55,930 bases of DNA from Sporolactobacillus sp. THM19-2 (GTDB lineage Bacteria; Bacillota; Bacilli; Bacillales; Sporolactobacillaceae): assembly GCF_004153195.1 (NCBI RefSeq), contig NZ_SEMC01000016.1, positions 1 through 55,930 of the forward strand, given 5' to 3'. Both the position numbers and the translations under genes were made by a program. Under the pieces are notes generated by a model. It did no database searches. It had not been told where the DNA came from and worked only from the letters and a program-made list of their open reading frames with translations. This document shows, piece by piece, positions 3,845 to 41,131 of the stretch; positions within the stretch are counted from its first letter, which is position 1, and the number at the start of each line of letters is the position of its first letter.

Positions 3845-4873
3845 TCAGTTGGTGAAGTATTTCTTTATGACTGTTTTCAATTCTGATTCATTTAAGATAA
3901 TCTGGCTGTTGTTTTTCTCCAGAACATCATCATACATGGTTGCTCCGCGCCCTTTGACCTGACGGTACTTAATCTGTTCTTCCGGATGAAAATCCCCTTT
4001 GACGCCGAGTCCGACGCTGACCATGTCTTCAGTTGACATGTTTGTTGCAATCAGGAATTTTGAAAGTGACCTTGAAAGGGCCGGAAGTTTCGTGACATTG
4101 GAAGGGTGCATGACTTTTTTCGCAATACCAATCAGTGCGGCCTGCTGGATCTTTTGCCTGCCGTAATCGGTACCGGGCAGCGAGTAGCGTTCGTGCGTCA
4201 GTTCGGCAACCATCCTGCCGTTGACCGAATGGGTGCCGGCTGTGAACGTCTTTCCCTTGTTTTCCGGATACCAGGGGTGGGTCAGGGTGACTTTAAAGGG
4301 AAGATTGATGTCGATACCCCCCAGTGTGTCGACCATATCCTGAAGACCCCAATAGTTGGTTTCTGCATAGTAGTTGATGGGAACTCCGGTCAGACGGGAG
4401 ACAGCCTTGACCGCATCAACAATTCCCTGTTGTGTGCCTTTTTTCGACTGAGATATGTACTGGACACTCGTCAGTTTGGTGTATCCGTAACCTGGCATGT
4501 ATACCCGTGTATCACGGGGGATACTCAGCATGTTGTATGTATGGTTGTTCAGGTTGGCGTGAATTAATACCATAGAATCGGTGTGGCTCGCTGTATTTCC
4601 CTTGCGCGCGTCAGAGCCGATCAGAAGGACATTGAATGTTCCCGATTTCTGCTCAGGGGCCTGCTTTTTTCCATTATCCGGTGAAACGCCGATGACATCG
4701 AGGTCTTTAAAATGGTTCACAGGTTTCAGCGTATTATATTTATAGATACCGAACGCCGTTCCGGAGACGATCAGAAGTGCGAGGATAAGCAGGGTATAGC
4801 GAAGGACCCGGTGCTTCTTCCTCGATTTTTTAATCCCTTCCCTTGTATTTTCGTTATCGGTTTTCCTGGACAA
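3845..4873 (-). CDS. LytR-CpsA-Psr (LCP) family cell-wall glycopolymer ligase
   Basis: LCP enzymes transfer undecaprenyl-linked teichoic acids or capsules to peptidoglycan outside the membrane. The protein has a basic cytoplasmic N-terminus, one membrane helix (VLRYTLLILALLIVSGTAFG) and an LCP domain. LCP residues visible are LLIGSDARKG with a following HTDSMVLI, SIPRDTRVYMPGYG, and the late RYSLPGTDYGRQKIQQ, so the conserved Asp/Arg set is present. I chose TTG 4873 (342 residues), which has GGAAAGAGGGA at good spacing. The longer ATG reading at 4969 would begin upstream of a good promoter at 4935-4963, so it is unlikely. It is monocistronic. The glycopolymer could be teichoic acid or the exopolysaccharide made at 20.8-32.6 kb; the sequence does not decide. 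Confidence 0.85.
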   Translation of the reverse strand: MSRKTDNENTREGIKKSRKKHRVLRYTLLILALLIVSGTAFGIYKYNTLKPVNHFKDLDVIGVSPDNGKKQAPEQKSGTFNVLLIGSDARKGNTASHTDSMVLIHANLNNHTYNMLSIPRDTRVYMPGYGYTKLTSVQYISQSKKGTQQGIVDAVKAVSRLTGVPINYYAETNYWGLQDMVDTLGGIDINLPFKVTLTHPWYPENKGKTFTAGTHSVNGRMVAELTHERYSLPGTDYGRQKIQQAALIGIAKKVMHPSNVTKLPALSRSLSKFLIATNMSTEDMVSVGLGVKGDFHPEEQIKYRQVKGRGATMYDDVLEKNNSQIILNESELKTVIKKYFTN

Positions 4874-4934
4874 AGAGTGATCCCTCTTTCCGTAGTGGTT
4901 TTTCGCATCGATATTTTTTCGCGGGTACAAAGTC

Positions 4935-4963
4935 ATTATAACGGTCGAGCCATCCCCAGACAA
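4935..4963 (-). promoter_or_regulatory. SigA-type promoter for the LCP gene
   Basis: On the - strand, TTGTCT (4963-4958), a 17-base spacer and a perfect TATAAT (4940-4935). It lies about 60 bases upstream of the TTG start at 4873 and inside the longest possible reading frame, which decides the start. Confidence 0.65.
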
Positions 4964-5094
4964 CATCATCCGGCAAAATGTCGATTTTCAGTAGATGATC
5001 CATGTTCTGTTTTCTTTCATAAGCCGGCTGATTGATCCGTTGCATTAATATTCAATTTTTTTGTTCCATGGTCGATTAATTGGATCCATGTCCA

Positions 5095-5144: not shown

Positions 5145-6752
5145 TTGTATTGTAAACATTGCGGCGCCCCGCTTCATGACGGGGCAAAGTTCTGCGGGAC
5201 GTGCGGTGCACCGGTTCCGCCGGCGGATGGGAAAGAGCAGGGGAACGACCGGGAAACCGAACCTCCTGTATCCTCTGCTCTTCATGAGGATGCGCCTGAT
5301 GCGTCTGCTGAAAAAGTCCATGAAGATCAGCACGCCTCAGAGCATGAGGAGCGTCAGATGGTTGCCGTACCTCCCCGTGACGCGGCAGTTGAATCTGCCG
5401 ATACTGTAACGGAGAGGCAGCCCGCTACCGGAAAGTCCTGGATACATAGAAAAGCCATTATGATCCCGCTGGTTTCATTGATTATCATTCTTGCCGGCCT
5501 GTACTTTATGGGAAAGTACCTGACCGATCCGGTCCGTACGGTTGATGCGTTTGAACAGGCGGTCGAGGATCAGAATATCGATAAACTGAAAGGCATGATC
5601 TATACCTATGAGGATGTTAAAATGACAGATACACAGGTTAAAGCCATGCTGGCCTGGTTTAAAAATGATCCGGATACGTATTCAGACATTGTTCAGTCAC
5701 TGGAAAACACGGCACACGCGGCGAATCACGTCAGATACGGCCATACCCCGTACTATCTGCATAAAGCCGGAAAACAATATCTCCTGTTCGATCATTATCA
5801 GATTGCAACAGAACTCATTTATCCGGAAGTGACGACGAACCTGAAAAACATGGTTATCGGGATCACAGGTGCCGGTAAGGGGAAAACGGCAGAAAAAGCA
5901 GAAAGCAATTCACCGCAGACGATTAAACTCGATGGGGTGATTCCGGGCATCTATACGTTCTACGGCCATTCAGATGCGATGGATCAGACGAAAAAAAAGA
6001 CATTGACTTCGGATGACAGGCAGGTTGATTTTTCCGGGACTTATATTTCGTTAAGCAGTAATATCCCTGTTGCCGAGCTTTATGTCAATAATAAAGATAC
6101 AGGTAAAACGGTTGCTCAGTCCGGTGAATGGGGGCCGTTCAAGAAGGATGATACACCGACTTTTTATGCCAGATATACGGCAAACGGGCATTCCATTCAA
6201 TCGGAGACGGTGTCTGTCTCCGATGAGTCTGATTATGATACCGTTACCCTGGATGAAGCCGAAAGTGACGGCATCGACCTTTATTTTGAAGATGTGGAAA
6301 ACGGTGATTTTTATACGCTCGATGGAACCGATAATCAGGCGAATATGGAGACGCTGAAAACCTACTTTGACGATTATTACAACGCCAATGCGAGTGCCGT
6401 ATCTTATGGCGAGATGGACCACTTTGCCTCCTTTTTTGAAACAGGCACTGATTTTTCCAATAGTCAGTTGAAAAGCGCTCAGAAATTCTATGACAACGGC
6501 GTCACGGAATCGATTAATTCTTATGATCTGGATAATCTCAAGAGTCAGGGTAAGGGACTTTACAGTGTTGAAGCCAATGAAAGCTGGGACGAAACCATTA
6601 CAGATGACGAGACAGGGGACAGAAAAGACATTACTTTCACACTGAAAAATACTTATCAGCTGAAAGAAACAGCTCCGGGTGAACTGAAAATCGTCGGGAT
6701 GAAAATCGAGGATCGGAAGGTTCAGACAACTTCTGAAAGTGAAGCGTACTGA
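5145..6752 (+). CDS. Zinc-ribbon, single-pass membrane protein of the TcaA/YvbJ type
   Basis: A 535-residue protein with an N-terminal zinc ribbon (C3-x2-C6 and C17-x2-C20) and an acidic linker. One membrane helix lies at about residues 103-123. A long extracellular part resembles TcaA/YvbJ proteins: a cystatin/NTF2-like first segment (VDAFEQAVEDQNIDKLKGMI), middle beta-rich repeats (VAELYVNNKDTGKTV) and a C-terminal NTF2-like domain. TcaA influences glycopeptide susceptibility in staphylococci; the molecular role of the family is unsettled. The start is TTG behind AGGAAAGAAGG. It stands alone, divergent from the LCP gene, which also acts at the cell envelope. Confidence 0.75.
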   Translation: MYCKHCGAPLHDGAKFCGTCGAPVPPADGKEQGNDRETEPPVSSALHEDAPDASAEKVHEDQHASEHEERQMVAVPPRDAAVESADTVTERQPATGKSWIHRKAIMIPLVSLIIILAGLYFMGKYLTDPVRTVDAFEQAVEDQNIDKLKGMIYTYEDVKMTDTQVKAMLAWFKNDPDTYSDIVQSLENTAHAANHVRYGHTPYYLHKAGKQYLLFDHYQIATELIYPEVTTNLKNMVIGITGAGKGKTAEKAESNSPQTIKLDGVIPGIYTFYGHSDAMDQTKKKTLTSDDRQVDFSGTYISLSSNIPVAELYVNNKDTGKTVAQSGEWGPFKKDDTPTFYARYTANGHSIQSETVSVSDESDYDTVTLDEAESDGIDLYFEDVENGDFYTLDGTDNQANMETLKTYFDDYYNANASAVSYGEMDHFASFFETGTDFSNSQLKSAQKFYDNGVTESINSYDLDNLKSQGKGLYSVEANESWDETITDDETGDRKDITFTLKNTYQLKETAPGELKIVGMKIEDRKVQTTSESEAY

Positions 6753-6793
6753 TCTCTGACGCCACAACTGAAACAGAGTTATACTTATCGTAA

Positions 6794-6834
6794 GAAGAAG
6801 CCTGTGTCCGCTAAAGCGGAGTACAGGCTTCTTC
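6794..6834 (+). terminator. Intrinsic terminator after the zinc-ribbon gene
   Basis: Arms GAAGAAGCCTGT and ACAGGCTTCTTC with an inner CCGC/GCGG pair. The stem is followed only by a weak T-rich tail. Confidence 0.75.
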
Positions 6835-6895
6835 ATTCTGTGACAGCTGTTCTGTTACACACGCCGGATGCCATCTTATTGACGAATTTTTCTGA

Positions 6896-7831
6896 TTGAA
6901 GCATGATAAGGCTATAACTCTGTTGGAGGGACCTCTGATTTTACAATTTGTTGATGTGATTCTGCCGGTCTTTATGATCTTTCTGAGCGGTTACCTGGTT
7001 CAGAAAATTTTCAGGCTGGATATTAAACCGATTTCGACGGTTGCCGTCTATCTGCTTCTGCCTTTTCTGGTATTCGACACCTTTTACACAACGCCGCTTA
7101 ATATGAGCTTTTTCTATATTGCGGTCACATCGACTCTGATTATGGTGCTGCTGATCCTGATCGGCGTCATTGTGTGCCGGCTGTTTCGTTATGAAAAAGC
7201 GGAGACAAACGCCTTTCTTCTGTCGACGATTTTTCCCAACAGCGGCAATTACGGTATCCCGATCATTCTGTTTGCTTTCGGGAAAGCCGGGGTGGCCGAT
7301 GCCCTGCCGCTGATGGTTTTTCATGCGATTCTGATGGGCGTTGTCGGGATCTATATTGCGGCAAACGGGCGGGGCGGAGCAAAGACCGCTTTACAGACGG
7401 TGCTGAAACAGCCGATGAACTATGCCATTATACCAGCTATTCTCTTGCAGGAGCTTCATATCCGGATTCCCGGTAATTTTATGGAAAGCATCCAGATGAT
7501 CAGTAATACGTCAATCCCGCTTATTATGATTATTCTCGGGATGCAGCTGGCAAATGTGGAAGTGCGGCGGATGAACTGGGGCGGGATCAGTCTGGTTACC
7601 GTCGTCCGTTTGATTGTCTCACCGCTGATTGCTTATGCGGTCTGTCTGTTTTTCCCGATCAGTACCTTACTCACAAATGTGATTATTGTCATGGCAGCGA
7701 TGCCGAGTGCGGCAAATACGACGCTTTATGCGATTCAGTTCAATGCAAAACCGCAGTTCGTCTCCAGCTGTACATTGATCACGACCCTGGCCAGTATGGT
7801 CACACTGGCAGTTTTACTAAATGTATTATAA
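6896..7831 (+). CDS. AEC (auxin efflux carrier) family transporter
   Basis: A polytopic membrane protein of about 300 residues with around ten hydrophobic helices in the two-bundle pattern of the AEC/bile-acid-sodium-symporter fold. The broken-helix motif FPNSGNYGIPI lies in the first half and MPSAANTTLYA in the second, as expected for AEC proteins, which export organic acids such as malate or malonate. The substrate cannot be read from sequence. The start is unclear: TTG 6896 has no ribosome site, whereas GGAGGG at 6925-6930 is well placed for an ATT at 6938, just before the first helix (LQFVDVILPVFMIFLSGYL). The coordinates given use the TTG. The YdcF-like gene follows after 37 bases. Confidence 0.8.
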   Translation: MKHDKAITLLEGPLILQFVDVILPVFMIFLSGYLVQKIFRLDIKPISTVAVYLLLPFLVFDTFYTTPLNMSFFYIAVTSTLIMVLLILIGVIVCRLFRYEKAETNAFLLSTIFPNSGNYGIPIILFAFGKAGVADALPLMVFHAILMGVVGIYIAANGRGGAKTALQTVLKQPMNYAIIPAILLQELHIRIPGNFMESIQMISNTSIPLIMIILGMQLANVEVRRMNWGGISLVTVVRLIVSPLIAYAVCLFFPISTLLTNVIIVMAAMPSAANTTLYAIQFNAKPQFVSSCTLITTLASMVTLAVLLNVL

Positions 7832-31377: not shown

Positions 31378-32550
31378 ATGATCCGGCTGAAACATGTACA
31401 TATTATTGTCGCAACAGGCGTATGGGCTCAGGACGGACTCCGGTACCGCCGCCATCGTCTCGCCGGCTTTTTACAGAAGCAGCAGGAAACAGAGAAGGTG
31501 ATCTGGCTCTGCCCGACGCCGGACCGGACCTTATCCGGCTTCACCGGGCTGCCTGGTGGCATTCTTCAGTTTGCTGTACCGGACCCTTTTCCTCAGAAGG
31601 CATTCCGTTTCTGTCGTTTTCTGTCGTTTTATTATAAAAAGAAGCTTTCAGCACTTCATGCGATGCTTGAGCGTTTCAGAGGGCATGCACACGTCTTTCT
31701 GTGGTTTACGTGCCCGCTCTTCCCTGAAGTAATGAATCTGTATGCATGGGATAAGGTGATCTATGACTGCAGTGATTTCTGGGCGGCGCCGATCAGCGGC
31801 AAGATGTCGCTGCCCTACCGGCTCAGGAGTATTCTGATTTCCCATGCTGAGAGAAAAATTATCAGTCGGGCAGATCTCATTTTCTGCACCTCTGATTATC
31901 TGAGAAATCAGGTGACGCAGCGGGTGCAGCCGGATAAATGCACACGCGTACGGACATATGAGAATGGCGTCGACTACAGCCTGTTCACTCAATCTTCCGT
32001 CGCGGCGGGCCATGTCCTTCCGGAGCATTTCACGGGGCCTGTACTCGGCTATATCGGCGGCATCAAACCAAAACTGGATTTTCGTCTGATTCAGGACGCG
32101 GCGCGAAAAAGGCGGGACTGGCTCTTCCTTTTTGTCGGACCGGATGGAACAGGAGAAGACCCGGCATTCCGTGAGCTGCTTCAGGAAAAAAATGTCATCT
32201 GGACCGGAAGCGTGTCCCCTGCTGAAGTACCGAAATACATGAAGCTGGTTGATGTCGGGATCATGCCCTATAAACTGTCTCCGTATAATGCGGCTGTTTT
32301 TCCATTGAAACTGTTTGAATTTCTCGCTGCCGGGAAACCGGCTGTCGGCATCAATCTGCCGTCAACCGCCGCTTATGCAGCAGACTCGGTGTATGCCGAG
32401 ATCGACCGTTCCGATACCGATACCTTTATTCATGTATGTGAAGAAATGTTGCGGGGAAAAGATGATCCTGACCTGAAGGCAAGAAGAACACGCCTCGCGA
32501 AGAGCAGGGACTGGGACGCGATTTTTCAGAAGATGGCCAATCAGCTCTGA
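31378..32550 (+). CDS. Glycosyltransferase (GT-B, GT4-like)
   Basis: A 390-residue protein with a GT-B layout: acceptor half with VIYDCSDFWA and ADLIFCTSDYLRNQV, donor half starting at GPVLGYIGGIKPKLDF. A GIMPYKLSPYNAAVFPLKLFEFLAAGKP region replaces the usual E-x7-E. This pattern is common in teichuronic/exopolysaccharide clusters (TuaH-like). AGGGGG directly abuts ATG 31378, so the exact start is uncertain. It is the last gene of the cluster; a gene-free, repeat-rich 960 bases follow. Confidence 0.75.
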   Translation: MIRLKHVHIIVATGVWAQDGLRYRRHRLAGFLQKQQETEKVIWLCPTPDRTLSGFTGLPGGILQFAVPDPFPQKAFRFCRFLSFYYKKKLSALHAMLERFRGHAHVFLWFTCPLFPEVMNLYAWDKVIYDCSDFWAAPISGKMSLPYRLRSILISHAERKIISRADLIFCTSDYLRNQVTQRVQPDKCTRVRTYENGVDYSLFTQSSVAAGHVLPEHFTGPVLGYIGGIKPKLDFRLIQDAARKRRDWLFLFVGPDGTGEDPAFRELLQEKNVIWTGSVSPAEVPKYMKLVDVGIMPYKLSPYNAAVFPLKLFEFLAAGKPAVGINLPSTAAYAADSVYAEIDRSDTDTFIHVCEEMLRGKDDPDLKARRTRLAKSRDWDAIFQKMANQL

Positions 32551-32690
32551 AGGCACGCCCGGAAGAGGCGCCCGGCAGTTCATTGCAATGAGTTGTGAAG
32601 TTAATTTCTTCCAAAACAGAGGGGAAGTCGCAGGGTCAAAACATATGAAAAATACAGTGGGACGATGATCTCTATGAGTTTAATGTATCA

Positions 32691-32807
32691 GTCCGAATCC
32701 GTGAAAAGTTGGTCCAAATTCAAGAAAAGTTGATCCGAATCCCTGAAAAGTTGGTCCAAACCCGAAAAAAGTCGGACCAAATCACAGAAAAGTCGGTCCA
32801 AACTCGG
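32691..32807. repeat. 21-bp tandem repeat, five full copies plus a half copy
   Basis: Units start at 32703, 32724, 32745, 32766 and 32787, after a half unit at 32691. The consensus is GAAAAGTTGGTCCAAA plus five variable bases. The period is seven codons; in one frame it reads EKLVQIQ-like heptads, but that frame has no start codon or ribosome site. Confidence 0.9.
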
Positions 32808-32942
32808 GGATGATAAGGAAAACCTGAAGGCGTATGGTCAAAATCTGAGACGATTTACAACAATATGAAAAATACAGAGGGGGGGTTCCCGGGATCCGCT
32901 CTTATCGACTGGGGGGGCAGGTTAAGCGCATGATCAGATGAA

Positions 32943-33130
32943 TAGACGGAAAAATTCCGCTTACTTAAGTCATTCAATTTAAAAACAGCTAAAATAGACG
33001 GAGAGATTCCGTCTATTGACCCAGAAAACGGGAAAATGGAGCTTTTTGCCTGGCCTAATCGGAAAACTTCCACTTATCTGCCCCTCGAAATGCGTGCCGT
33101 TCTGCCTCTGACCGGAAAATTTCCGCTTAT
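32943..33130. repeat. Four dispersed near-palindromes of the CGGAAAATTTCCG type
   Basis: Copies lie near 32943 (GACGGAAAAATTCCGCTTA), 32996 (GACGGAGAGATTCCGTCTA), 33058 (ATCGGAAAACTTCCACTTA) and 33111 (ACCGGAAAATTTCCGCTTA). They are spaced 53-62 bases apart; each is roughly palindromic and ends in a CTTA-like tail. Confidence 0.75.
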
Positions 33131-33356
33131 TTTACTTTTTGCTCTCAGGACAAAACATCTGATGACAAGTAAGTGAGAAGAAAACCCTCGCGAGGTGGGA
33201 GATGGCCTGCGGGGCTTTGAAAGGGAGCGCAAAACGCAGAAGAAGAGTCGCCCGGCCAGGAAGGCAGCCCTTTGACCATCTGGAAAAGTTGCGCTGCTTA
33301 GATTGGCATGATGAAAAAAATCAACATTGCAAAAAGTTCGAGTGTATTTTTTTATA

Positions 33357-33384
33357 TTGACTTACCCCCTGTTCTGTATATAAT
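33357..33384 (+). promoter_or_regulatory. SigA-type promoter of the polyamine cluster
   Basis: TTGACT (33357-33362), 16-base spacer, perfect TATAAT (33379-33384). It gives a leader of about 135 bases before speD. Confidence 0.7.
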
Positions 33385-33526
33385 TAATATTGATTTTTGT
33401 CTCTTATTAGATAATCTCTTCATTTAACCCTCCCGACGATGTTCCTGTCACTTGAATGGATCCCCGTTTTTTTCTGCCTGGTATCCTTTAATTACCTGAA
33501 TATAGAGAAAGGCTGTGAGGACAGGG

Positions 33527-34330
33527 TTGGAAAATAAGCTGAAGCTGTATGGCTTTAACAACCTCACAAAGGCACTGAGCTTCAACATTTATGATGTTTG
33601 CTATGCAAAGAGCGAGCGTGAGCAGAGAGACTACATTTCTTATATCGATGAGCAGTATAATTCGGAACGCCTGACGAAGATTCTCTGCAAAGTCACAGAG
33701 ATGATCGGTGCCCATGTTCTTAATATCAGCAAACAGGACTATGATCCGCAGGGCGCAAGTGTGACGGTGCTGATCGCGGAGCAGGAGTTTCCGACGGACA
33801 AAATCGATCCCTCCTGTAATCTCGGCCGGATCGGTGACGCGCGGGATACGATCGTCGGGCATCTCGATAAAAGCCACGTGACGGTGCACACCTATCCGGA
33901 ATTCCACCCGGGGAATGCGATTGCTACCTTCCGGGTGGATATTGACGTGGCAACCTGTGGTGAGATCACACCGCTTAATACGCTGAATTACCTGATCGGC
34001 AGCTTCGATTCCGATATCATTACGGCCGATTACCGGGTTCGCGGATTCACGCGCGATGTGGATGGAAAGAAGCTGTTCATGGATCACCGGATGACTTCAA
34101 TTCAGGATTATATTGATGAAACGACTTTGGAAAAATATGATGCTACGGATATCAATGTTTATCAGGCGAATCTGTTTCATACCAAAATGCTGATTAAGGA
34201 ACTGGATCTGCAGAATTATCTGTTTAACCGGGATGTACTGGAAATTCCTCCGAAAGAGCGGCTGAAAATCAGCAGCAGTTTACGCAGGGAAATGATCGAA
34301 ATCTTCAGTGGTGCCAATATATTTGGCTGA
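33527..34330 (+). CDS. speD: S-adenosylmethionine decarboxylase proenzyme (long, E. coli type)
   Basis: A protein of about 267 residues that decarboxylates SAM to supply the aminopropyl donor for spermidine. The self-cleavage site is visible as DKSHVTVHTYPE, where the Ser becomes the pyruvoyl cofactor. The N-terminus (KLKLYGFNNLTKALSFNIYD) closely follows the E. coli enzyme. It is the long class, about twice the length of the B. subtilis SpeD (126 residues), which is unexpected in a Bacillus-like host. TTG 33527 is six bases after GAGG and matches the family N-terminus; GTG 33515 is an alternative. It is the first gene of the cluster. Confidence 0.9.
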   Translation: MENKLKLYGFNNLTKALSFNIYDVCYAKSEREQRDYISYIDEQYNSERLTKILCKVTEMIGAHVLNISKQDYDPQGASVTVLIAEQEFPTDKIDPSCNLGRIGDARDTIVGHLDKSHVTVHTYPEFHPGNAIATFRVDIDVATCGEITPLNTLNYLIGSFDSDIITADYRVRGFTRDVDGKKLFMDHRMTSIQDYIDETTLEKYDATDINVYQANLFHTKMLIKELDLQNYLFNRDVLEIPPKERLKISSSLRREMIEIFSGANIFG

Positions 34331-34396
34331 TTGTAAAAAATAGGACAGCCTGCCGGTCACCCGGACAGGCTTTAAAACGGAGAATGATGAAATAAA

Positions 34397-35845
34397 ATGA
34401 ACCAGCTGTCACAAAAACGGGCGCCTGTACTTGAAGCGCTGAACCGTTTTAAGGCCATGCGGGTTGTTCCGTTCGATGTACCCGGGCACAAGAGAGGGCG
34501 GGGAAACAGGGAACTGGCTGATTTTCTCGGCGACCGCTGCCTGTCGGTTGATGTCAATTCCATGAAGCCGCTCGACAACCTCTGCCATCCGGTTTCGGTC
34601 ATCAGGGATGCGGAAGACCTCGCGGCTGAGGCATTCGGGGCGGAACACGCGTTTTTTATGGTGAACGGGACCACCTCAGCTGTCCAGAGCATGGTGATGA
34701 GTGTCTGCAAGCGCGGAGAAAAAATCATTATGCCGCGTAATGTGCACCGGAGCGCAATCAATGCCCTGATTCTGAGCGGTGCGGTGCCTGTCTATGTCAA
34801 TCCCGGTATGAACCGTGATCTGGGGATCTCTCTGGGCATGTCTCTTGACGATGTCAGGCAGGCTGTGATCGAAAATCCGGATGCGAAAGCGGTCCTTGTC
34901 AACAATCCGACCTATTATGGCATCTGTTCCAATCTGAAGGCGATCACGGATCTGGCGCATGAATATGGCATGCGTGTTCTCGTTGATGAAGCGCACGGCA
35001 CGCACTTCTACTTTGGTGAACAGATGCCGGTGACCGCGATGGCCGCCGGTGCTGACATGGCTGCTGTCAGTATGCACAAGTCGGGCGGGTCGCTGACGCA
35101 GAGCTCGCTTTTGCTGACGAGTCATGGGATGAGTGAAGGGTATGTCCGCCAAATCATTAACCTGACGCAGACGACCAGCGGTTCCTATCTGTTGATCTCT
35201 TCGCTGGACATTTCCCGACGTAATCTCGCTCTGAACGGCCGGCGGATTTTCAGCAGAGTCAGCACGATGGCGGAATATGCCCGGTCTGAGATCAACAGGA
35301 TCGGCGGTTATTACGCCTTCTCAGGCGAGCTCATCAACAGGGATACCATTTATGATTTTGACCGGACGAAGCTGTCGATACACACCCTGGAGCTTGGTCT
35401 GGCAGGGATTGAGGTCTACGATACGCTGCGTGATGAATACGATATCCAGATTGAATTCGGTGATATTGGGAATATTCTGGCTTATCTGTCGATCGGTGAC
35501 CGGATTCTGGATATCGAACGGCTTGTCTCGGCATTATCTGAAATCCGGAGGCAATATGCCGGAGATAAAACGGGCATGCTCAGCCAGGAATATATCCGTC
35601 CGCAGGTTGTGGCTGCGCCGCAGGAAGCGTTTTATGCGGAAAGTGAATCGGTTGCGCTCAATGAAAGCAGCGGCAGGATCTGCGGTGAATTCGTCATGTG
35701 CTATCCGCCCGGTATCCCGATTCTTGCTCCCGGCGAACGCATCACAGCCGATATATTAACGTATATCCGCTATGCGAAGGAAAGAGGCTGCTTTCTGACG
35801 GGTACCCGGGACAGCAGGGTCAATCGCCTGCAGGTGATCAAGTGA
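34397..35845 (+). CDS. speA: Orn/Lys/Arg decarboxylase, probable arginine decarboxylase
   Basis: A 482-residue fold-type I PLP decarboxylase of the short SpeA/YaaO type. It has PFDVPGHKRGRG near the N-terminus, VNGTTSAVQSMV, LVDEAHGTHFYF with the PLP Asp, and SMHKSGGSLTQSS with the Schiff-base Lys; the C-terminal domain ends in YPPGIPILAPGE. In B. subtilis, SpeA makes agmatine from arginine; lysine or ornithine cannot be excluded. A small stem (AGCCTGCCGG...CCGGACAGGCT) lies in the 66-base gap after speD and may attenuate. No agmatinase gene is in the window. Confidence 0.8.
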   Translation: MNQLSQKRAPVLEALNRFKAMRVVPFDVPGHKRGRGNRELADFLGDRCLSVDVNSMKPLDNLCHPVSVIRDAEDLAAEAFGAEHAFFMVNGTTSAVQSMVMSVCKRGEKIIMPRNVHRSAINALILSGAVPVYVNPGMNRDLGISLGMSLDDVRQAVIENPDAKAVLVNNPTYYGICSNLKAITDLAHEYGMRVLVDEAHGTHFYFGEQMPVTAMAAGADMAAVSMHKSGGSLTQSSLLLTSHGMSEGYVRQIINLTQTTSGSYLLISSLDISRRNLALNGRRIFSRVSTMAEYARSEINRIGGYYAFSGELINRDTIYDFDRTKLSIHTLELGLAGIEVYDTLRDEYDIQIEFGDIGNILAYLSIGDRILDIERLVSALSEIRRQYAGDKTGMLSQEYIRPQVVAAPQEAFYAESESVALNESSGRICGEFVMCYPPGIPILAPGERITADILTYIRYAKERGCFLTGTRDSRVNRLQVIK

Positions 35846-36038
35846 AACGTCAATCAGTGGGCGCACCGGACGAGCCCGCGCAGGCGTTGCGACAGGACGC
35901 CCTCGTTTTTAACCTGCCCTGATTGCTCGTTGAACCCATCGAACGGCTGCGGGCAGTGATCTCCCCAGACATGTTCGTGTACCCTCATGCCCCTGAGGTG
36001 GTAATGCCCGTTCATGCGGGAAAAAGGAGGCGAAGGAT
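35846..36038 (+). other. 193-base gap with paired segments between speA and speE
   Basis: It contains CTGCCC (35914-35919) complementary to GGGCAG (35951-35956) with an inner CGTT/AACG pair, plus CCTCATGCCCCTGAGG and GCCCGTTCATGCGGG hairpins just before the speE ribosome site. No coding frame is supported. It may tune speE expression; no named RNA class is recognised. Confidence 0.3.
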
Positions 36039-36890
36039 TTGGAATTATGGTTTACGGAGAAACATACGAAGCATGTGAAGTTTTCGATTCAGGTAGACAA
36101 ACAGATCTATTCCGGACGGAGTGAGTTTCAGCGGATCGACCTCTTTGATTCACCTGAATTCGGCCGGTTTCTGACCCTCGACGGCTACATGATGCTGACG
36201 GAGAAAGACGAATTTATCTATCACGAGATGATCATTCATGTCCCGATGGCTGTGCATCCTCAAGCAAAGCGTGTGCTCGTCATTGGAGGCGGAGACGGCG
36301 GTGCTATCCGGGAACTGGTGCGTTATCCGGGCATTGAACAGATTGATCTCGTGGAAATTGACCGGCAGGTGGTCGAAGTCTGTAAAAAATTCTTGCCGCA
36401 AACCGCCGGGGGTCTGGACGACCCCCGGGTGTCGATCCATTATGAGGACGGCCTGAAATTTGTTCGGACAAAAGATCAGGCATATGATTTAATTGTTGTA
36501 GATTCAACAGACCCGTTCGGCCCGGGTGAGGGGCTTTTTACCAAAGAGTTTTATGGCAATTGTTATAAAGCCCTTCGCGCAGACGGGCTGATGGTCAATC
36601 AGCAGGAAAGCCCCTTTTATCCTGTAGATGCCGTGGCGATGCAACGGGCGCACAAGCGGATTGTTGCCTCGTTCCCGGTCAGCCGCGTCTATCAGGCGCA
36701 TATTCCCACTTATCCGTCGGGACACTGGCTGTTCGGATTCGCATCGAAAAAGGATCATCCGACAAAGGATTTTGATCCGGAAGCGTGGCTGAAACTCGGC
36801 CTCAGGACGCGATACTACAATCCGGACATTCATATCGGTGCCTTTGCCCTGCCGAACTATGTGAAGGATCTCTTGGAAGAAGTTGAGTAA
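36039..36890 (+). CDS. speE: Spermidine synthase (aminopropyltransferase)
   Basis: A 283-residue enzyme that transfers the aminopropyl group of decarboxylated SAM to an amine, normally putrescine. It has FLTLDGYMMLTEKDEFIYHE, the cofactor motif VIGGGDGG, the carboxylate VEIDRQVVE, and the DSTDPFGPGEGLF gate region. The length and order match B. subtilis SpeE. It starts at TTG 36039 after GGAGGCGAAGGA. The amine acceptor may be putrescine or agmatine given the missing agmatinase. It is followed after 25 bases by the dehydrogenase gene. Confidence 0.9.
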   Translation: MELWFTEKHTKHVKFSIQVDKQIYSGRSEFQRIDLFDSPEFGRFLTLDGYMMLTEKDEFIYHEMIIHVPMAVHPQAKRVLVIGGGDGGAIRELVRYPGIEQIDLVEIDRQVVEVCKKFLPQTAGGLDDPRVSIHYEDGLKFVRTKDQAYDLIVVDSTDPFGPGEGLFTKEFYGNCYKALRADGLMVNQQESPFYPVDAVAMQRAHKRIVASFPVSRVYQAHIPTYPSGHWLFGFASKKDHPTKDFDPEAWLKLGLRTRYYNPDIHIGAFALPNYVKDLLEEVE

Positions 36891-36915
36891 GGACATTTAA
36901 GGAGGCGTTCATCAA

Positions 36916-38115
36916 ATGGGAAAAGCGTTAATTATCGGAGCAGGCGGTGTCGCTGGTGTTGTGGTACACAAATGCTGCCAGAATCCGGCTGTTTTTGAAG
37001 AAATCTGCATTGCAAGCCGTACCGTATCCAAATGCGAGGCTTTAAAAAAGAAACTGGACGGAGGGCGGACAAAGATTCAGACGGCACAGGTCGACGCGAA
37101 TCACGTTCCGGAACTGGTGGCACTGATTAAGAAGTTTCAGCCTGATATCGTGATTAACGTGGCCCTTCCGTATCAGGATCTGACCATTATGGACGCCTGC
37201 CTTGAGACCGGAGTGGACTATGTCGACACAGCCAATTATGAACCGGAGGATACGGCGAAGTTTGAATATAAATGGCAGTGGGCGTACCGGGACAGATTTA
37301 AGGAGGCCGGGATTACGGCTCTTCTCGGAAGCGGGTTCGACCCGGGCGTCACCGGTGTTTTTTCGGCCTACGCGCAGAAGCACTATTTTGATGAGATCCA
37401 TCAGATTGATATACTTGATGCCAATGCAGGCGACCATGGCTATCCGTTCGCAACCAATTTCAACCCGGAGATCAATATCCGTGAAGTGACGGCAAAAGGC
37501 AGCTATTTTGAAAAAGGCCGATTCATCGAAACGGAACCGATGTCGTTCAAAAAAGTCTATGATTTCCCGCAGATCGGACCGAAAGATATCTACCTGCTGC
37601 ATCATGAAGAGATGGAGTCCCTCGCACTCCATATCAAAGGGATTAAGAAGATCAGATTCTGGATGACTTTCTCGCAGAGTTATCTGAACCATCTTCAGGT
37701 CCTGCAGGATGTCGGCATGACCTCGATTGAACCCATCAACTTCGAAGGAAAACAGATTGTCCCTCTGCAGTTTTTGAAGGCGGTTCTTCCGGATCCGGCT
37801 TCCCTTGGCCCGCGGACCAAAGGGAAAACGAATATCGGCTGCATCTTCCAGGGGACAAAAGAGGGCAGACCGGTCAGGTACTATGTGTACAACGTCTGTG
37901 ATCACGAGGCGTGCTATAAAGAAGTCGGCTCGCAGGCCATCTCCTATACAACCGGTGTGCCGGCGATGATCGGAGCCTCGATGATCCTGACCGGCAAGTG
38001 GAAAAAGCCGGGTGTTTACAACATTGAAGAATTTGATCCCGATCCGTTCATGGACGCACTGAATCAGTTCGGACTGCCGTGGCAGGAGAGCTTTTCGCCG
38101 GAACTGATTGACTGA
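36916..38115 (+). CDS. Carboxy(nor)spermidine dehydrogenase, saccharopine-dehydrogenase family
   Basis: A 399-residue NAD(P)H-dependent reductase. GAGGVAGVV near the N-terminus binds the nucleotide; NVALPYQDLTIMDACLETG, YVDTANYE, GSGFDPGVTGVFSAYA and the late TTGVPAMIGASMIL follow the family of Lys1-like carboxynorspermidine synthases. It condenses aspartate semialdehyde with a diamine (putrescine gives carboxyspermidine). The partner decarboxylase is encoded 11 bases downstream. The ribosome site AAGGAGG lies before ATG 36916. Confidence 0.85.
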   Translation: MGKALIIGAGGVAGVVVHKCCQNPAVFEEICIASRTVSKCEALKKKLDGGRTKIQTAQVDANHVPELVALIKKFQPDIVINVALPYQDLTIMDACLETGVDYVDTANYEPEDTAKFEYKWQWAYRDRFKEAGITALLGSGFDPGVTGVFSAYAQKHYFDEIHQIDILDANAGDHGYPFATNFNPEINIREVTAKGSYFEKGRFIETEPMSFKKVYDFPQIGPKDIYLLHHEEMESLALHIKGIKKIRFWMTFSQSYLNHLQVLQDVGMTSIEPINFEGKQIVPLQFLKAVLPDPASLGPRTKGKTNIGCIFQGTKEGRPVRYYVYNVCDHEACYKEVGSQAISYTTGVPAMIGASMILTGKWKKPGVYNIEEFDPDPFMDALNQFGLPWQESFSPELID

Positions 38116-38126
38116 GGGGGCAGCTG

Positions 38127-39263
38127 ATGGCTATTGATTTCAGGCAGGCCCCTTCGCCCTGCTATATCGTTGATGAAGGGCTGCTCATTAAAAATCTGGA
38201 AATCCTGTATGCTGTTGAACGTCAGACTGGCTGTAAGATCCTGCTGGCACAGAAGGCGTTTTCGATGTTTTCTCTTTATCCGCTGATCGGCAGATATCTG
38301 AGCGGCGTCGCCTCAAGTTCCCTGCATGAAGCGCGGCTCGGGCGTGAGGAAATGGATAAAGAGGTGCATGTTTACTCACCTGCTTACAGGGAAAGTGAAT
38401 TTGATGAGATCCTGCACGTCGCCGATCATCTTGTTTTTAATTCCTTCAGCCAGTGGCGCCGGTTTCGCGACCGGGTGAAACAATCCGGGCAGCCTGTTTC
38501 CTGCGGGATCCGGGTGAATCCGGAATACTCAGAAGTCGCCGCCGGTTTGTATAATCCGTGTGCGCCGTGTTCCCGGATGGGAGTCACACTGAAAAACTTT
38601 GAACCTGATGCGCTTGAGGGCCTTGAAGGCCTGCATTTTCACACCCTGTGTGAACAAAATTCAGATGCTCTGGAGCATACACTTTCCGCTGTGGATGAAA
38701 AGTTCGGCAGGTACCTGAAGCAGATGAAGTGGATCAACTTTGGCGGCGGACACCACATCACGCGTCCGGATTATGATCTGAGCCGGCTGAGGCGCTGCAT
38801 CAGCTTCATGCAGGATAAGTATGATCTTCAGGTTTATCTGGAACCGGGTGAGGCGGTTGCGCTGAATGCGGGGTATCTCGTTGGAACTGTGCTGGATGTG
38901 ATGCATAACGGCATGGATCTGGCTATACTGGATCTGTCAGCCACCTGCCATATGCCGGATGTGCTGGAGATGCCGTATCGCCCGGTGTTGATTGGAGGGG
39001 GGAAGCCTGGCGAAAAGTCGTTTACGTACCGCCTGGGTGGTCCGACCTGCCTTGCAGGAGACGTCATCGGTGATTATTCATTTGATCACCGGCTCCACCC
39101 GGGAGATCGCCTGGTGTTCTGCGATATGGCCATATATTCCATGGTCAAGAACAATACGTTCAACGGCGTCGGTCTCCCGTCTATTGCTGTATTTAATGAA
39201 ACAGACGGACTGCGTATCGTGAAATCTTTCAGTTATAAAGATTTCAAATCACGGCTGTCCTGA
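38127..39263 (+). CDS. nspC: Carboxy(nor)spermidine decarboxylase
   Basis: A 378-residue fold-type III PLP decarboxylase. The Schiff-base Lys is in LLAQKAFSMF, followed by ASSSLHEA, GIRVNPEYSEV, FHTLCEQN, a PLP-phosphate FGGGHHIT, and the YLEPGEAV, CHMPDVLEMPYRP and GPTCLAGDVIGDY segments that set NspC apart from LysA. It removes the carboxyl group from carboxyspermidine or carboxynorspermidine. It overlaps no gene, lies 11 bases after the dehydrogenase, and ends the five-gene unit before a strong terminator. Confidence 0.9.
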   Translation: MAIDFRQAPSPCYIVDEGLLIKNLEILYAVERQTGCKILLAQKAFSMFSLYPLIGRYLSGVASSSLHEARLGREEMDKEVHVYSPAYRESEFDEILHVADHLVFNSFSQWRRFRDRVKQSGQPVSCGIRVNPEYSEVAAGLYNPCAPCSRMGVTLKNFEPDALEGLEGLHFHTLCEQNSDALEHTLSAVDEKFGRYLKQMKWINFGGGHHITRPDYDLSRLRRCISFMQDKYDLQVYLEPGEAVALNAGYLVGTVLDVMHNGMDLAILDLSATCHMPDVLEMPYRPVLIGGGKPGEKSFTYRLGGPTCLAGDVIGDYSFDHRLHPGDRLVFCDMAIYSMVKNNTFNGVGLPSIAVFNETDGLRIVKSFSYKDFKSRLS

Positions 39264-39293
39264 AAAAAGCCTGCCAATCGGCAGGCTTTTTCT
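39263..39293 (+). terminator. Intrinsic terminator of the polyamine cluster
   Basis: AAAAAGCCTGCC and GGCAGGCTTTTT around AATC, directly after the nspC stop. Confidence 0.95.
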
Positions 39294-39394
39294 TTAAAAT
39301 ATGAAAAATCTGACGATAATTGCAGGATTTTGAAAGAGGAAAAAAGAAAAGAGAATATAAGAAATTTGAGCGGACACAGTGACTGCGCCTTTTC

Positions 39395-39424
39395 TTATCA
39401 GACGCTTACAATCTGTTCTATAAT
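39395..39424 (+). promoter_or_regulatory. Promoter upstream of the structured region at 39.45 kb
   Basis: TTATCA (39395-39400), 18-base spacer, perfect TATAAT (39419-39424). Transcription would start near 39431. Confidence 0.45.
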
Positions 39425-39450
39425 TTAAATAAAGTAAAGCAAAAACTAAA

Positions 39451-39568
39451 GGAGATGTGGAAAATCCACGTGGTGGCGCACGCAGGGCTGTCCCCAATAA
39501 ACGTGTCTATTAAAAATGTTTTTTCACAGGACGACCCTCCTGCGCTACACGAATAAAGGACGATCTCC
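39451..39568 (+). ncRNA. Candidate rod-like structured RNA or 5' leader
   Basis: GGAGAT (39451-39456) pairs with ATCTCC (39563-39568) and encloses an asymmetric bubble with a local GTGGA-aaa-TCCAC hairpin. Then a long arm follows: CGTG with CACG, TGGCGCA (39474-39480) with TGCGCTA (39541-39547), AGGG with CCCT, and GTCC with GGAC. No coding frame or terminator T-run belongs to it. It lies 20 bases after a promoter and 100 bases before the small gene at 39667. It matches no riboswitch I recognise. Confidence 0.5.
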
Positions 39569-39666
39569 ATCCGGTAATCGCTGCTGAAAACCCTTAAGCC
39601 ACTGGCACCTGACGAATACATGACTGACCGGAGAACTGCTTATACTGAAACATAAGGAGGGATTCC

Positions 39667-39927
39667 ATGAACAAATACGGATTTTATGCTGAATTCGATG
39701 GAAAGCAGTCGTTACCTGTTGAAATCAGCCGGCCTGAGGAAACCATGATTTCAGAGACCATGCTGTCATCAATCAAGGCTTTTGCGCGTAAAAAAGGGAC
39801 GGAAGTGATCGGCGTGGATGAACTGAAAGACGGTGCCATGCGTGCTTATTTCCGCAAAAAAAAGTGGTTTCACAAAAATCCCGAAATCATTTATTATGTC
39901 AGTGAAATCACTGACCGTGATTCCTGA
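39667..39927 (+). CDS. Small conserved protein, paralogue of the 20406 gene
   Basis: An 86-residue basic/charged soluble protein. The shared pattern with the 20406 product is Y-x4-EFDG, LPVEI, PEE, later DEL...RAYFRKKK and PEII. It lacks the acidic C-terminal tail of its paralogue. The ribosome site AAGGAGGG is strong. The family is not recognised. The candidate structured RNA upstream could be its leader. Confidence 0.7.
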   Translation: MNKYGFYAEFDGKQSLPVEISRPEETMISETMLSSIKAFARKKGTEVIGVDELKDGAMRAYFRKKKWFHKNPEIIYYVSEITDRDS

Positions 39928-39931
39928 AGTC

Positions 39932-39975
39932 TGAACGCGAAGCAGAACCTGACCGCCTGCCTGCGTTCATTTTTC
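39932..39975 (+). terminator. Probable terminator after the 39667 gene
   Basis: TGAACGC and GCGTTCA arms with inner GCAG pairing and a T-run (TTTTTCTT). It sits directly before the stop of the convergent amidohydrolase. Confidence 0.6.
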
Positions 39976-39976
39976 T

Positions 39977-41131
39977 TTATGACTTCAACCTGCGCAGCAG
40001 ATGGCCAGCCAGTTCTGTAAAAAAACGGGCAGCGGGCAGAACAGCCTGTTCGTCAACGATCAGGTCGGGATGATGCAGATCGGAATTTCCTGAAACGCCC
40101 ATGAAAAAGAAGCTGCCGGGGATCTTTTTCTGATATTCGGCAAAATCTTCACCAATGAGGGTCAGCGGGGGTTCAACCACGTTTAACCCGCAAGCCGCAG
40201 CCGTATCAGTGGCTATTCCGGATAACAGCGGATCATTCACCACAGGCGGGCCGAGTCTTATATACCGGACATGCGCTTCTGTACCCAGTGCGAGCGCCGT
40301 GTGTCTGGCAACCCGTTTCATCTTTTGTTCGATATTTTCCCGTACTTCTTCGCTGAACGTGCGTACCGTTCCTTCGAGCTGCGCCCGGTCAGGCATCACG
40401 TTCCATGTATTTCCGGCCTCCAGCCGGGTGACACTGATCAGCGCCTGATTCAGAGGGGATGTATTCCGGCTGATAATCGTCTGCAGGGCGCTGACCATCT
40501 GCGAAGCCGCAACAATAGTATCACTCCCCTTTTCAGGCGTGGCGCCATGCGTACCGATACCTGTGATATCGATGATAAACCGGTCGACAGCGGCCATCAG
40601 CGGACCGGAACGGATGCCGATGGTACCCGTCGGTAAAGACGGCATAATGTGCATGCCGCAGATGGACTGCACATCATCAAGCAGACCGGTTTTCAACACC
40701 TCAATGGCCCCATTGCCCTTCTCCTCGGCCGGCTGAAAGATGATTTTGACGGTCCCCGAAAGATCCTCCTCACGTTCCTTCAGTAAACGGGCAGCACCCA
40801 GCATCGTTGCCATATGCACATCATGCCCGCATGCATGCATTTTTCCCGGATGAACTGAGGCAAACGGCAACCCGGTCTGTTCTGTTATCGGGAGCGCGTC
40901 AATATCCGAACGCAGGGCAATCGTCGGACCCGGTTTCTGCCCGCCGATGACGGCCAGAGCGCCGGTTTTCAAAGGGAATGCAGCCGTTCGAATGGAAAAC
41001 TGATCCAGCCATTTGCTGATCCGGGCGGTTGTCTTATATTCCTCAAAAGCGAGTTCAGGCTCACGGTGCAGTTGTCTGCGGCAGCTGATCAGCCATTTTT
41101 CCACTTCGGCATCTGATCTTTTTGGAGCCAT
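39977..41131 (-). CDS. M20 family amidohydrolase (N-acyl amino acid / hippurate hydrolase type)
   Basis: A 384-residue metallohydrolase of the M20D group: RRQLHREPELAFEEY, the metal ligand segment ALRSDIDALPI, MHACGHDVHMA, FQPAEEKGNG, a dimerisation domain with THGATPEKG, and a last ligand in HHPD. Members remove acyl groups from amino acids or hydrolyse hippurate, indole conjugates or N-acetyl-diaminopimelate. The substrate is not decided here. ATG 41131 follows GAGAGGA. It is monocistronic. Confidence 0.85.
   Translation of the reverse strand: MAPKRSDAEVEKWLISCRRQLHREPELAFEEYKTTARISKWLDQFSIRTAAFPLKTGALAVIGGQKPGPTIALRSDIDALPITEQTGLPFASVHPGKMHACGHDVHMATMLGAARLLKEREEDLSGTVKIIFQPAEEKGNGAIEVLKTGLLDDVQSICGMHIMPSLPTGTIGIRSGPLMAAVDRFIIDITGIGTHGATPEKGSDTIVAASQMVSALQTIISRNTSPLNQALISVTRLEAGNTWNVMPDRAQLEGTVRTFSEEVRENIEQKMKRVARHTALALGTEAHVRYIRLGPPVVNDPLLSGIATDTAAACGLNVVEPPLTLIGEDFAEYQKKIPGSFFFMGVSGNSDLHHPDLIVDEQAVLPAARFFTELAGHLLRRLKS

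Follow-up and report, generated by a model that had tools for sequence, protein, structure and literature searches.

A Sporolactobacillus operon with two aminopropyl-adding systems: a predicted hybrid polyamine pathway without agmatinase

What would a bacterium make with an operon that encodes two aminopropyl-adding systems, and from which precursor, when its genome has no agmatinase? We addressed this question for a five-gene polyamine operon of Sporolactobacillus sp. THM19-2. The operon lies in a 55,930-nt stretch of DNA (the window), which is contig C13 of a 3.0 Mb genome in 70 contigs. It combines S-adenosylmethionine (SAM) decarboxylase and an aminopropyltransferase (SpeD/SpeE) with carboxyspermidine dehydrogenase and carboxyspermidine decarboxylase (CASDH/CASDC), together with a SpeA-type decarboxylase. 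From sequence comparisons we read it as a variant of the hybrid polyamine operon without agmatinase, in which arginine would be converted to agmatine, agmatine to putrescine by AguA/AguB, putrescine to spermidine by CASDH/CASDC and spermidine to spermine by SpeD/SpeE. We regard this reading as moderately probable.

Gene content of the operon

Five complete plus-strand genes, speD, speA, speE, CASDH and CASDC, were found to fill positions 33515-39263 of the window, all with open frames. An earlier note on this DNA had described five genes in one direction; the complete frames and the family matches given below confirmed this, and both aminopropyl-adding systems were intact. The speD gene (33515..34330, +; 271 aa; PF02675) has a GTG start at 33515, though an in-frame TTG at 33527 is a possible alternative start. 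Its product scored 423.5 bits against TIGR03331 (cut-off 255.8), which places it in the long E. coli class of SAM decarboxylases, as the earlier note had said. This class is nevertheless usual for such clusters: wherever SpeD was seen adjoining a CASDH cluster it was 67-94% identical to that of the window. SpeD was the sole PF02675 match in the window's genome.

The speA gene (34397..35845, +; 482 aa) encodes an aspartate-aminotransferase-fold decarboxylase of the short (ancestral) form, presumed to be an arginine decarboxylase (PF01276, OKR_DC_1, E 6e-72) and 61-84% identical to SpeA of CASDH-bearing clusters. K228, which by motif we take to be the pyridoxal phosphate lysine, was kept in 43 of 44 aligned rows, with a gap at that position in the 44th. 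The speE gene (36039..36890, +; 283 aa; TTG start) encodes an aminopropyltransferase, a predicted spermine/spermidine synthase, above the cut-offs of TIGR00417 and NF002010 (396 bits for the latter, cut-off 260); it was the sole PF01564 match in the genome.

The CASDH gene (36916..38115, +; 399 aa; Sacchrp_dh domains) encodes a predicted carboxyspermidine (or carboxyaminopropylagmatine) dehydrogenase. It matched solved CASDH structures, with that of Bacteroides fragilis (8deb) at E 3.6e-170. Against NF043000, a carboxynorspermidine synthase model, it scored 420.5 bits, under the cut-off of 800, so this model gives a norspermidine role no support. The last gene, CASDC (38127..39263, +; 378 aa), encodes an nspC-type carboxyspermidine decarboxylase (TIGR01047, 502.6 bits, cut-off 409).

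The genome survey for the five-gene order that the earlier note had proposed was run. The order speD-speA-speE-CASDH-CASDC was kept in 14/14 Sporolactobacillus genomes searched, and is therefore not due to chance. Gene identities, order and conservation in the genus are thus established at the sequence level, as are the presence of aguAB and the absence of agmatinase described next.

Agmatinase is absent and aguA-aguB is present

A genome search for speB gave no agmatinase (TIGR01230) match at E 1e-3 in the window's genome, and none over the cut-off in any of the 14 genus genomes. The absence noted from the window alone thus holds for the genome. It had led to the suggestion that the enzymes may act on agmatine. 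That argument is weakened, because the genome has aguA-aguB elsewhere, and the missing agmatinase does not make agmatine the sole substrate. The two genes lie on contig C66, away from the operon, and overlap by 4 nt. AguB scored 472.1 bits against TIGR03381 (N-carbamoylputrescine amidase), over the cut-off of 410.25, while AguA scored 359 bits against TIGR03380 (agmatine deiminase), under the cut-off of 381.8. However, the alignment of AguA with 1vkp, an agmatine deiminase from a plant, spans its full length and takes in the GHIDN and GGN-HC stretches, suggesting that AguA likely works as an agmatine deiminase though it is not a certain TIGR03380 member. Judged by these matches, AguA and AguB together should convert agmatine to putrescine. 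Among the frames around aguAB, read by eye, no member of a catabolic agmatine operon was recognised. An agmatine-deiminase homologue (PF04371) was present in 14/14 Sporolactobacillus genomes, compared with 7/44 other relatives.

By TIGR03380 score, AguA proteins of these genomes fell into two grades. Nine clostridial genomes gave about 530-570 bits, and a lower grade of about 280-384 bits comprised Sporolactobacillus, L080, L129 and Clostridium beijerinckii (L064). One AguA of each grade, each near an aguB, was found in Sporobacter termitidis (L092).

Agmatinase and aguAB do not occur together in the 57 cluster genomes

Out of 583 confirmed candidates, the 80 best named CASDH loci were fetched from genome contigs. 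Within this set 43 loci also carry speE, 29 of them together with speB and 14 without it; two were truncated at the end of a contig (L054, and L061, whose sequence begins inside speE), and in 35 no aminopropyltransferase was detected beside CASDH at this search sensitivity. SpeD was seen in 24/29 speB-bearing loci and in 12/14 of those without speB. The typical full order in Bacillota was speD-speA-speE-speB-CASDH-CASDC, and speB sat between speE and CASDH in 28/29 speB-bearing loci. CASDH-CASDC come first in L059 and in the contig-cut L054, and the gaps are wider in L058 and L130. Genome G031, of the same taxonomic order as the window's, has all six genes in the typical sequence, and G046 has them likewise but without speD.

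The window's gene order is that of this common Bacillota cluster minus speB. It shares genes, order and strand with clusters of Sporosarcina, Acetobacterium, Faecalispora, Herbinix and others, whose CASDH is 75-85% identical, but differs in having a 25-nt gap in place of speB between speE and CASDH. Across the genus this gap measures 25-297 nt, too small for a speB gene of about 850 nt; short remnants were not searched for. The two-route combination, taken in the earlier note as unusual, is in fact common among these loci (43 of the best 80), and a hybrid of this kind has been published (PMC11999265).

We next considered 57 genomes with a speA-speE-CASDH cluster: the 14 Sporolactobacillus genomes, G031, G046 and 41 named genomes, i.e. 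the 43 speE+CASDH loci minus two Sporolactobacillus loci already counted. Completeness is given for 16 of the 57, and many of the others are metagenome bins. Agmatinase (TIGR01230) was over the cut-off in 31 genomes. AguB (TIGR03381) was over its cut-off in 25, and a 26th (G058) has the gene in two pieces on two contigs; aguA matches (TIGR03380, E 1e-3) were found in 26, ten of them over the cut-off. The 31 agmatinase genomes and the 26 aguAB genomes never overlap and together make up all 57, so a guanidine-removing step is always kept. That the two classes differ inside the cluster follows from how loci were chosen, whereas the genome-wide absence of the other system was not selected for.

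PF02675 (speD) was found in 52/57 genomes, and a 53rd (L122) has a speD piece at a contig end; the matches of G046 and L072 are located away from the cluster and belong to a different, short-frame type. No PF02675 match was found in the genomes of L057, L121, L125 and L129, and these four are therefore hybrids in a wide sense only.

The exclusion is no general rule. Of the seven relatives outside the genus with PF04371, six (G014, G019, G020, G024, G029, G051) encode a PF00491 protein of full strength as well, an agmatinase or another ureohydrolase, but none of them is a hybrid by our measure: G019 and G024 have a CASDH of 80% identity but no PF01564 protein, and the other four gave no CASDH-like match above 31%.

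Repeated exchange without a visible matching change in the enzymes

A maximum-likelihood tree was built from concatenated CASDH and SpeE proteins, with SpeA added where available. The agmatinase/aguAB label changes at least six times on this tree, with five changes forced by well-supported branches, counts that cannot separate gain from loss. A single origin of the aguAB group was rejected (approximately unbiased test, p 2e-10). On this tree, the swap between speB and aguAB occurred at least five times. Sporolactobacillus forms one clade (support 100/100). The window's CASDH and SpeE are 85% and 77% identical to their best speB-type relatives, and 83% and 71% identical to the best aguAB-type relatives outside the genus. 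One record, titled Paenibacillus bovis DE0126 (L052), groups with Sporosarcina (100/100) and may be mislabelled, or its cluster transferred.

The residues that define CASDH in B. fragilis are described as a His-Glu-Glu triad at 228-230 and a deep Glu at 188 (PMC10413350). The counterparts E190, H230, E231 and E232 were present in 57/57 rows, consistent with the structural CASDH family. Five active-site positions discussed for the B. fragilis enzyme (PMC10413350) likewise held the same residue in 57/57 rows, B. fragilis Ser144 being Thr here. At a sixth position, T346, which packs against the nicotinamide, 4/31 speB rows have Ala instead.

No alignment column separated the speB from the aguAB group in CASDH (401 columns), SpeE (289) or SpeA (504; 44 rows, as 13/14 Sporolactobacillus rows were partial and left out), and with 0/401 CASDH columns doing so the idea that a CASDH residue changes along with the swap was rejected. 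Position 355 of CASDH was looked at as a candidate switch. It is M in 27/31 speB rows, in 3/12 aguAB rows outside the genus and in 0/14 Sporolactobacillus rows, but only five independent pairs were available (median p 0.5), and fewer than six pairs cannot reach 0.05.

Predicted pathway and its alternatives

In the pathway that we favour, SpeA would convert arginine to agmatine, and AguA/AguB, encoded outside the operon, would take agmatine through N-carbamoylputrescine to putrescine. CASDH would then join putrescine with aspartate semialdehyde to give carboxyspermidine, which CASDC would decarboxylate to spermidine. SpeD would make decarboxylated SAM, from which SpeE would transfer the second aminopropyl group to give spermine; spermidine synthesis may be a side or backup activity of SpeE. 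Which substrates are used, which way the flow runs and that spermine is formed are what we infer from the sequences. Where aguAB is present, putrescine would be the straightforward precursor by analogy with known pathways. Bacteroides thetaiotaomicron is described as using a route of arginine, agmatine, N-carbamoylputrescine, putrescine, carboxyspermidine and spermidine, which supports putrescine as precursor together with CASDH (PMC10135574). In pneumococcus, a second precedent, spermidine is said to arise from putrescine by CASDH/CASDC (PMC7990898). As for spermine, SpeE residues D86, G88 and E106 fit the spermine-synthase pattern of a 2024 study (PMC11107197), and the pattern was present in all 57 cluster rows.

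An ornithine decarboxylase role for SpeA, which would make agmatine chemistry unnecessary, is disfavoured, since SpeA of this type is accompanied by agmatinase or aguAB in 57/57 genomes. Two SpeA-type enzymes of Bacilli that have been tested were arginine decarboxylases (PMC8503589), which also counts against it.

Several observations weigh against the putrescine route or against spermine as its product. The proposed CASDH catalytic residues are identical in speB and aguAB genomes, so there is no sequence sign of a substrate change to putrescine. The SpeE motif residues also occur, by alignment, in 1inl, which we take to be the Thermotoga maritima spermidine synthase structure; the motif alone thus does not decide spermine activity. 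The earlier note's suggestion of a longer polyamine is plausible from the SpeE positions, but these are shared with a spermidine synthase. Each of the 14 genus genomes has an arginase-family match of a weak or uncertain kind. Within a set of 58 relatives, 13 of these genomes show no other such match (best E from 2e-5 to 1e-9), while G011 also has a stronger ureohydrolase (E 3.8e-47), though at 120.6 bits against an agmatinase cut-off of 174.3. The CASDH/CASDC pair of Clostridium leptum, the assayed relative with both systems and the closest in kind, made about 150-fold more aminopropylagmatine than the Agrobacterium tumefaciens pair (PMC11999265). Deletion of ncpah in B. thetaiotaomicron gave two unidentified compounds and trace spermidine (PMC10135574), suggesting that the putrescine route is possibly not the whole story even there. 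A literature search found no polyamine profile of Sporolactobacillus; six papers mention both the genus and polyamines, but to judge by title none deals with this topic.

A possible but unlikely alternative is redundant spermidine synthesis, with SpeE making only spermidine (or aminopropylagmatine) and one branch serving as a backup or responding to SAM supply. In its favour, the aminopropyltransferase of Sporomusa ovata, from a genome with both systems, gave spermidine and no detectable spermine by liquid chromatography-mass spectrometry (LC-MS) (PMC11999265), and the window's genome has a single PF01564 protein. On the other hand, four of five tested aminopropyltransferases from hybrid genomes made spermine by LC-MS (PMC11999265), and SpeE conforms to the published spermine-synthase motif.

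We place little weight, too, on an agmatine-first hybrid, which we rank next. Here CASDH/CASDC (and SpeE) would act on agmatine, and AguA/AguB would finish N1-aminopropylagmatine, replacing SpeB in its role of aminopropylagmatinase. More doubtful still is the extension of this scheme to aguAB-type hybrid operons at large, where the first aminopropyl group would go onto agmatine and AguA/AguB would turn N1-aminopropylagmatine via N-carbamoylspermidine into spermidine. The exchange of speB and aguAB at least five times in an otherwise unchanged cluster, the lack of any CASDH, SpeE or SpeA column that separates the groups and the identical catalytic residues all fit the agmatine-first scheme, which explains equally well why CASDH stays unchanged with the swap. 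In Anaerosporobacter faecicola (L062) aguAB lies directly upstream of speD, inside the cluster. The C. leptum enzymes prefer agmatine (PMC11999265), and we ourselves draw a link to the two unidentified compounds that B. thetaiotaomicron accumulates without NCPAH (PMC10135574). Against this, no AguA/AguB activity on aminopropylagmatine was found in the literature searched, and a full-text literature search for the word carbamoylspermidine found no paper. The scheme needs a new enzyme activity, whereas formation of plain putrescine by aguAB is an established reaction.

An agmatine-first pathway that ends without AguAB, either with aminopropylagmatine as end product or with its hydrolysis by a 265-aa arginase-fold protein, seems very improbable. 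This protein, encoded on contig C14 of the window's genome (L031:3130-3927, -), keeps D-H-H-T-D and S-I-D-K-D motifs that resemble metal ligands, and similarly weak arginase-family matches occur throughout the genus. It is very divergent, however (PF00491 E 3e-9, partial; no NCBIfam match), and does not track speB loss, because similar weak hits occur in relatives with full-length ureohydrolases; why aguAB does track that loss would be left unexplained. Its neighbours encode a DUF3842 protein, a CobW/HypB/UreG-type GTPase and a CbiM-type metal transporter (4651-5082, 5163-5840, 5962-6987), and one guess is that it is a nickel-dependent hydrolase.

That one branch is decayed or off-pathway, which the earlier note had named as fatal to its idea, is hardly credible and was rejected: CASDH does score under the NF043000 cut-off, but that is a carboxynorspermidine synthase model, the five frames are open, the order is kept in 14/14 genus genomes and the proposed CASDH catalytic residues are present in 57/57 rows.

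Relation to known systems

The closest known system is the hybrid decarboxylated SAM/aspartate-semialdehyde spermine pathway shown in 2025 for C. leptum and Deferribacter desulfuricans (Li et al. 2025; PMC11999265). Both genomes are described as having both systems, and their CASDH/CASDC pairs as forming much aminopropylagmatine from agmatine (PMC11999265). Like that hybrid, the window's genome combines CASDH/CASDC, SpeD and an aminopropyltransferase and would be fed by arginine decarboxylase, which in C. leptum has the same fold as the window's SpeA (PMC11999265). The 2025 work proposed a route from agmatine to aminopropylagmatine (PMC11999265). The agmatinase-type ureohydrolase that belongs to this agmatine-first version was not found in the window's genome, which has aguAB, so the Sporolactobacillus route cannot end with agmatinase. 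The term 'deiminase' is absent from the main text of PMC11999265, and the aguAB type thus seems not to be treated there.

B. thetaiotaomicron resembles the window's genome in having arginine decarboxylase, agmatine iminohydrolase, NCPAH (AguB type), CASDH and CASDC, but its pathway as described has no SpeD/SpeE, and spermidine is the sole polyamine accumulated (PMC10135574). Streptococcus pneumoniae shares arginine decarboxylase, SpeE and CASDH/CASDC; unlike in the window, speD is not annotated in the published account (PMC7990898). The adjacency of both systems in C. leptum (PMC10413350), firmicute clusters with speA, speB, speD, speE and casdh (PMC8503589) and, in general, the choice between SpeB and AguA/AguB (PMC10407285) are already published. 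In the literature searched, as far as those sources were covered, neither a hybrid operon of the aguAB type nor repeated exchange inside the cluster was found.

The 2025 work only partly settled whether agmatine or putrescine is the source of spermidine in bacteria with both chemistries. The clean agmatinase/aguAB split offers a natural experiment on this point, with the same CASDH/CASDC/SpeE set facing two guanidine-removing systems. A comparison of Sporolactobacillus with Sporosarcina would reveal the substrate of these enzymes and whether AguA/AguB is broader than thought. If AguAB does act on aminopropylagmatine, there would be an additional path from this compound to spermidine, and the repeated mutual replacement of speB and aguAB without visible change in CASDH would be accounted for.

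Transcription signals

The five genes are likely carried on a single transcript, judging from the signals around them. The best promoter candidate is a sigma-70-type TTGACT-16 nt-TATAAT at 33357..33384 (+), with 11/12 consensus positions. The single promoter of the earlier note thus has a good candidate, though promoter-like sites as a class were not clearly in excess: 12 were found in 32500-40500 against 8.3 expected from shuffles (standard deviation 2.7). A predicted intrinsic terminator follows CASDC at 39264..39291 (+; -19.4 kcal/mol, z -5.6), with a stem that runs into the T tract; the pattern scan skipped it, presumably because the stem takes up that tract. The statement that a terminator stands only at the end proved too strong. 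A hairpin between speD and speA (34347..34371, +; -17.1 kcal/mol, z -3.2) has a poor T run and is a possible attenuator, and the pattern scan gave a weak terminator-like site in the speA-speE gap (35883..35911, +) whose fold is no better than shuffles (z -0.15). Terminator-like sites in the scanned region numbered 8, with 7.7 expected. Across the 14 Sporolactobacillus genomes the speD-speA gap is 13-189 nt and the speA-speE gap 2-193 nt, the window's 193 nt being the longest. No Rfam family reached its gathering score in 32600-39700, so neither the leader nor the gaps yielded an RNA regulator.

Other loci and neighbouring genes

Plasmid and phage records gave no lead for spread of the operon: of 72,556 plasmid records, 130 contained CASDH relatives, 7 of them at 60-80% identity and the other 123 below that range, and of 50,697 phage records 3 contained SpeE relatives, none of which reached 60% identity. 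Other genomes of the family and order (L036, L039-L043) have only CASDH-CASDC at the CASDH locus. Those of L036 and L043 carry other SpeA-type and agmatinase-level genes elsewhere, and a separate SpeE is encoded in that of L043 as well. Perhaps Sporolactobacillus acquired speD-speA-speE, or these genes took the place of an older set.

In a genome of the same family (G017:C1:3537614-3538813; 75% complete, 10% contamination) the CASDH match was split into four segments, one of which contains a stop codon; this may reflect assembly error or decay. L103, a metagenome bin titled Methylococcaceae, holds a Bacillota-like CASDH-CASDC pair (78% identity) that is possibly contamination. Enterococcus sulfureus (L121) has speA-speE-speB-CASDH-CASDC, with no speD found in its genome and a SpeE only 48% identical to that of the window; it resembles pneumococcus in having speE but no recognised speD.

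Behind the operon, on the opposite strand, the window encodes an M20-family amidohydrolase (39977-41131, -; TIGR01891 over cut-off). A second SpeA-like gene of the window's genome (L032:2139-4258, contig C8) lies directly upstream of a gene that by eye is thymidylate-kinase-like; yaaO of Bacillus subtilis occupies the matching position beside such a gene (PMC8503589).

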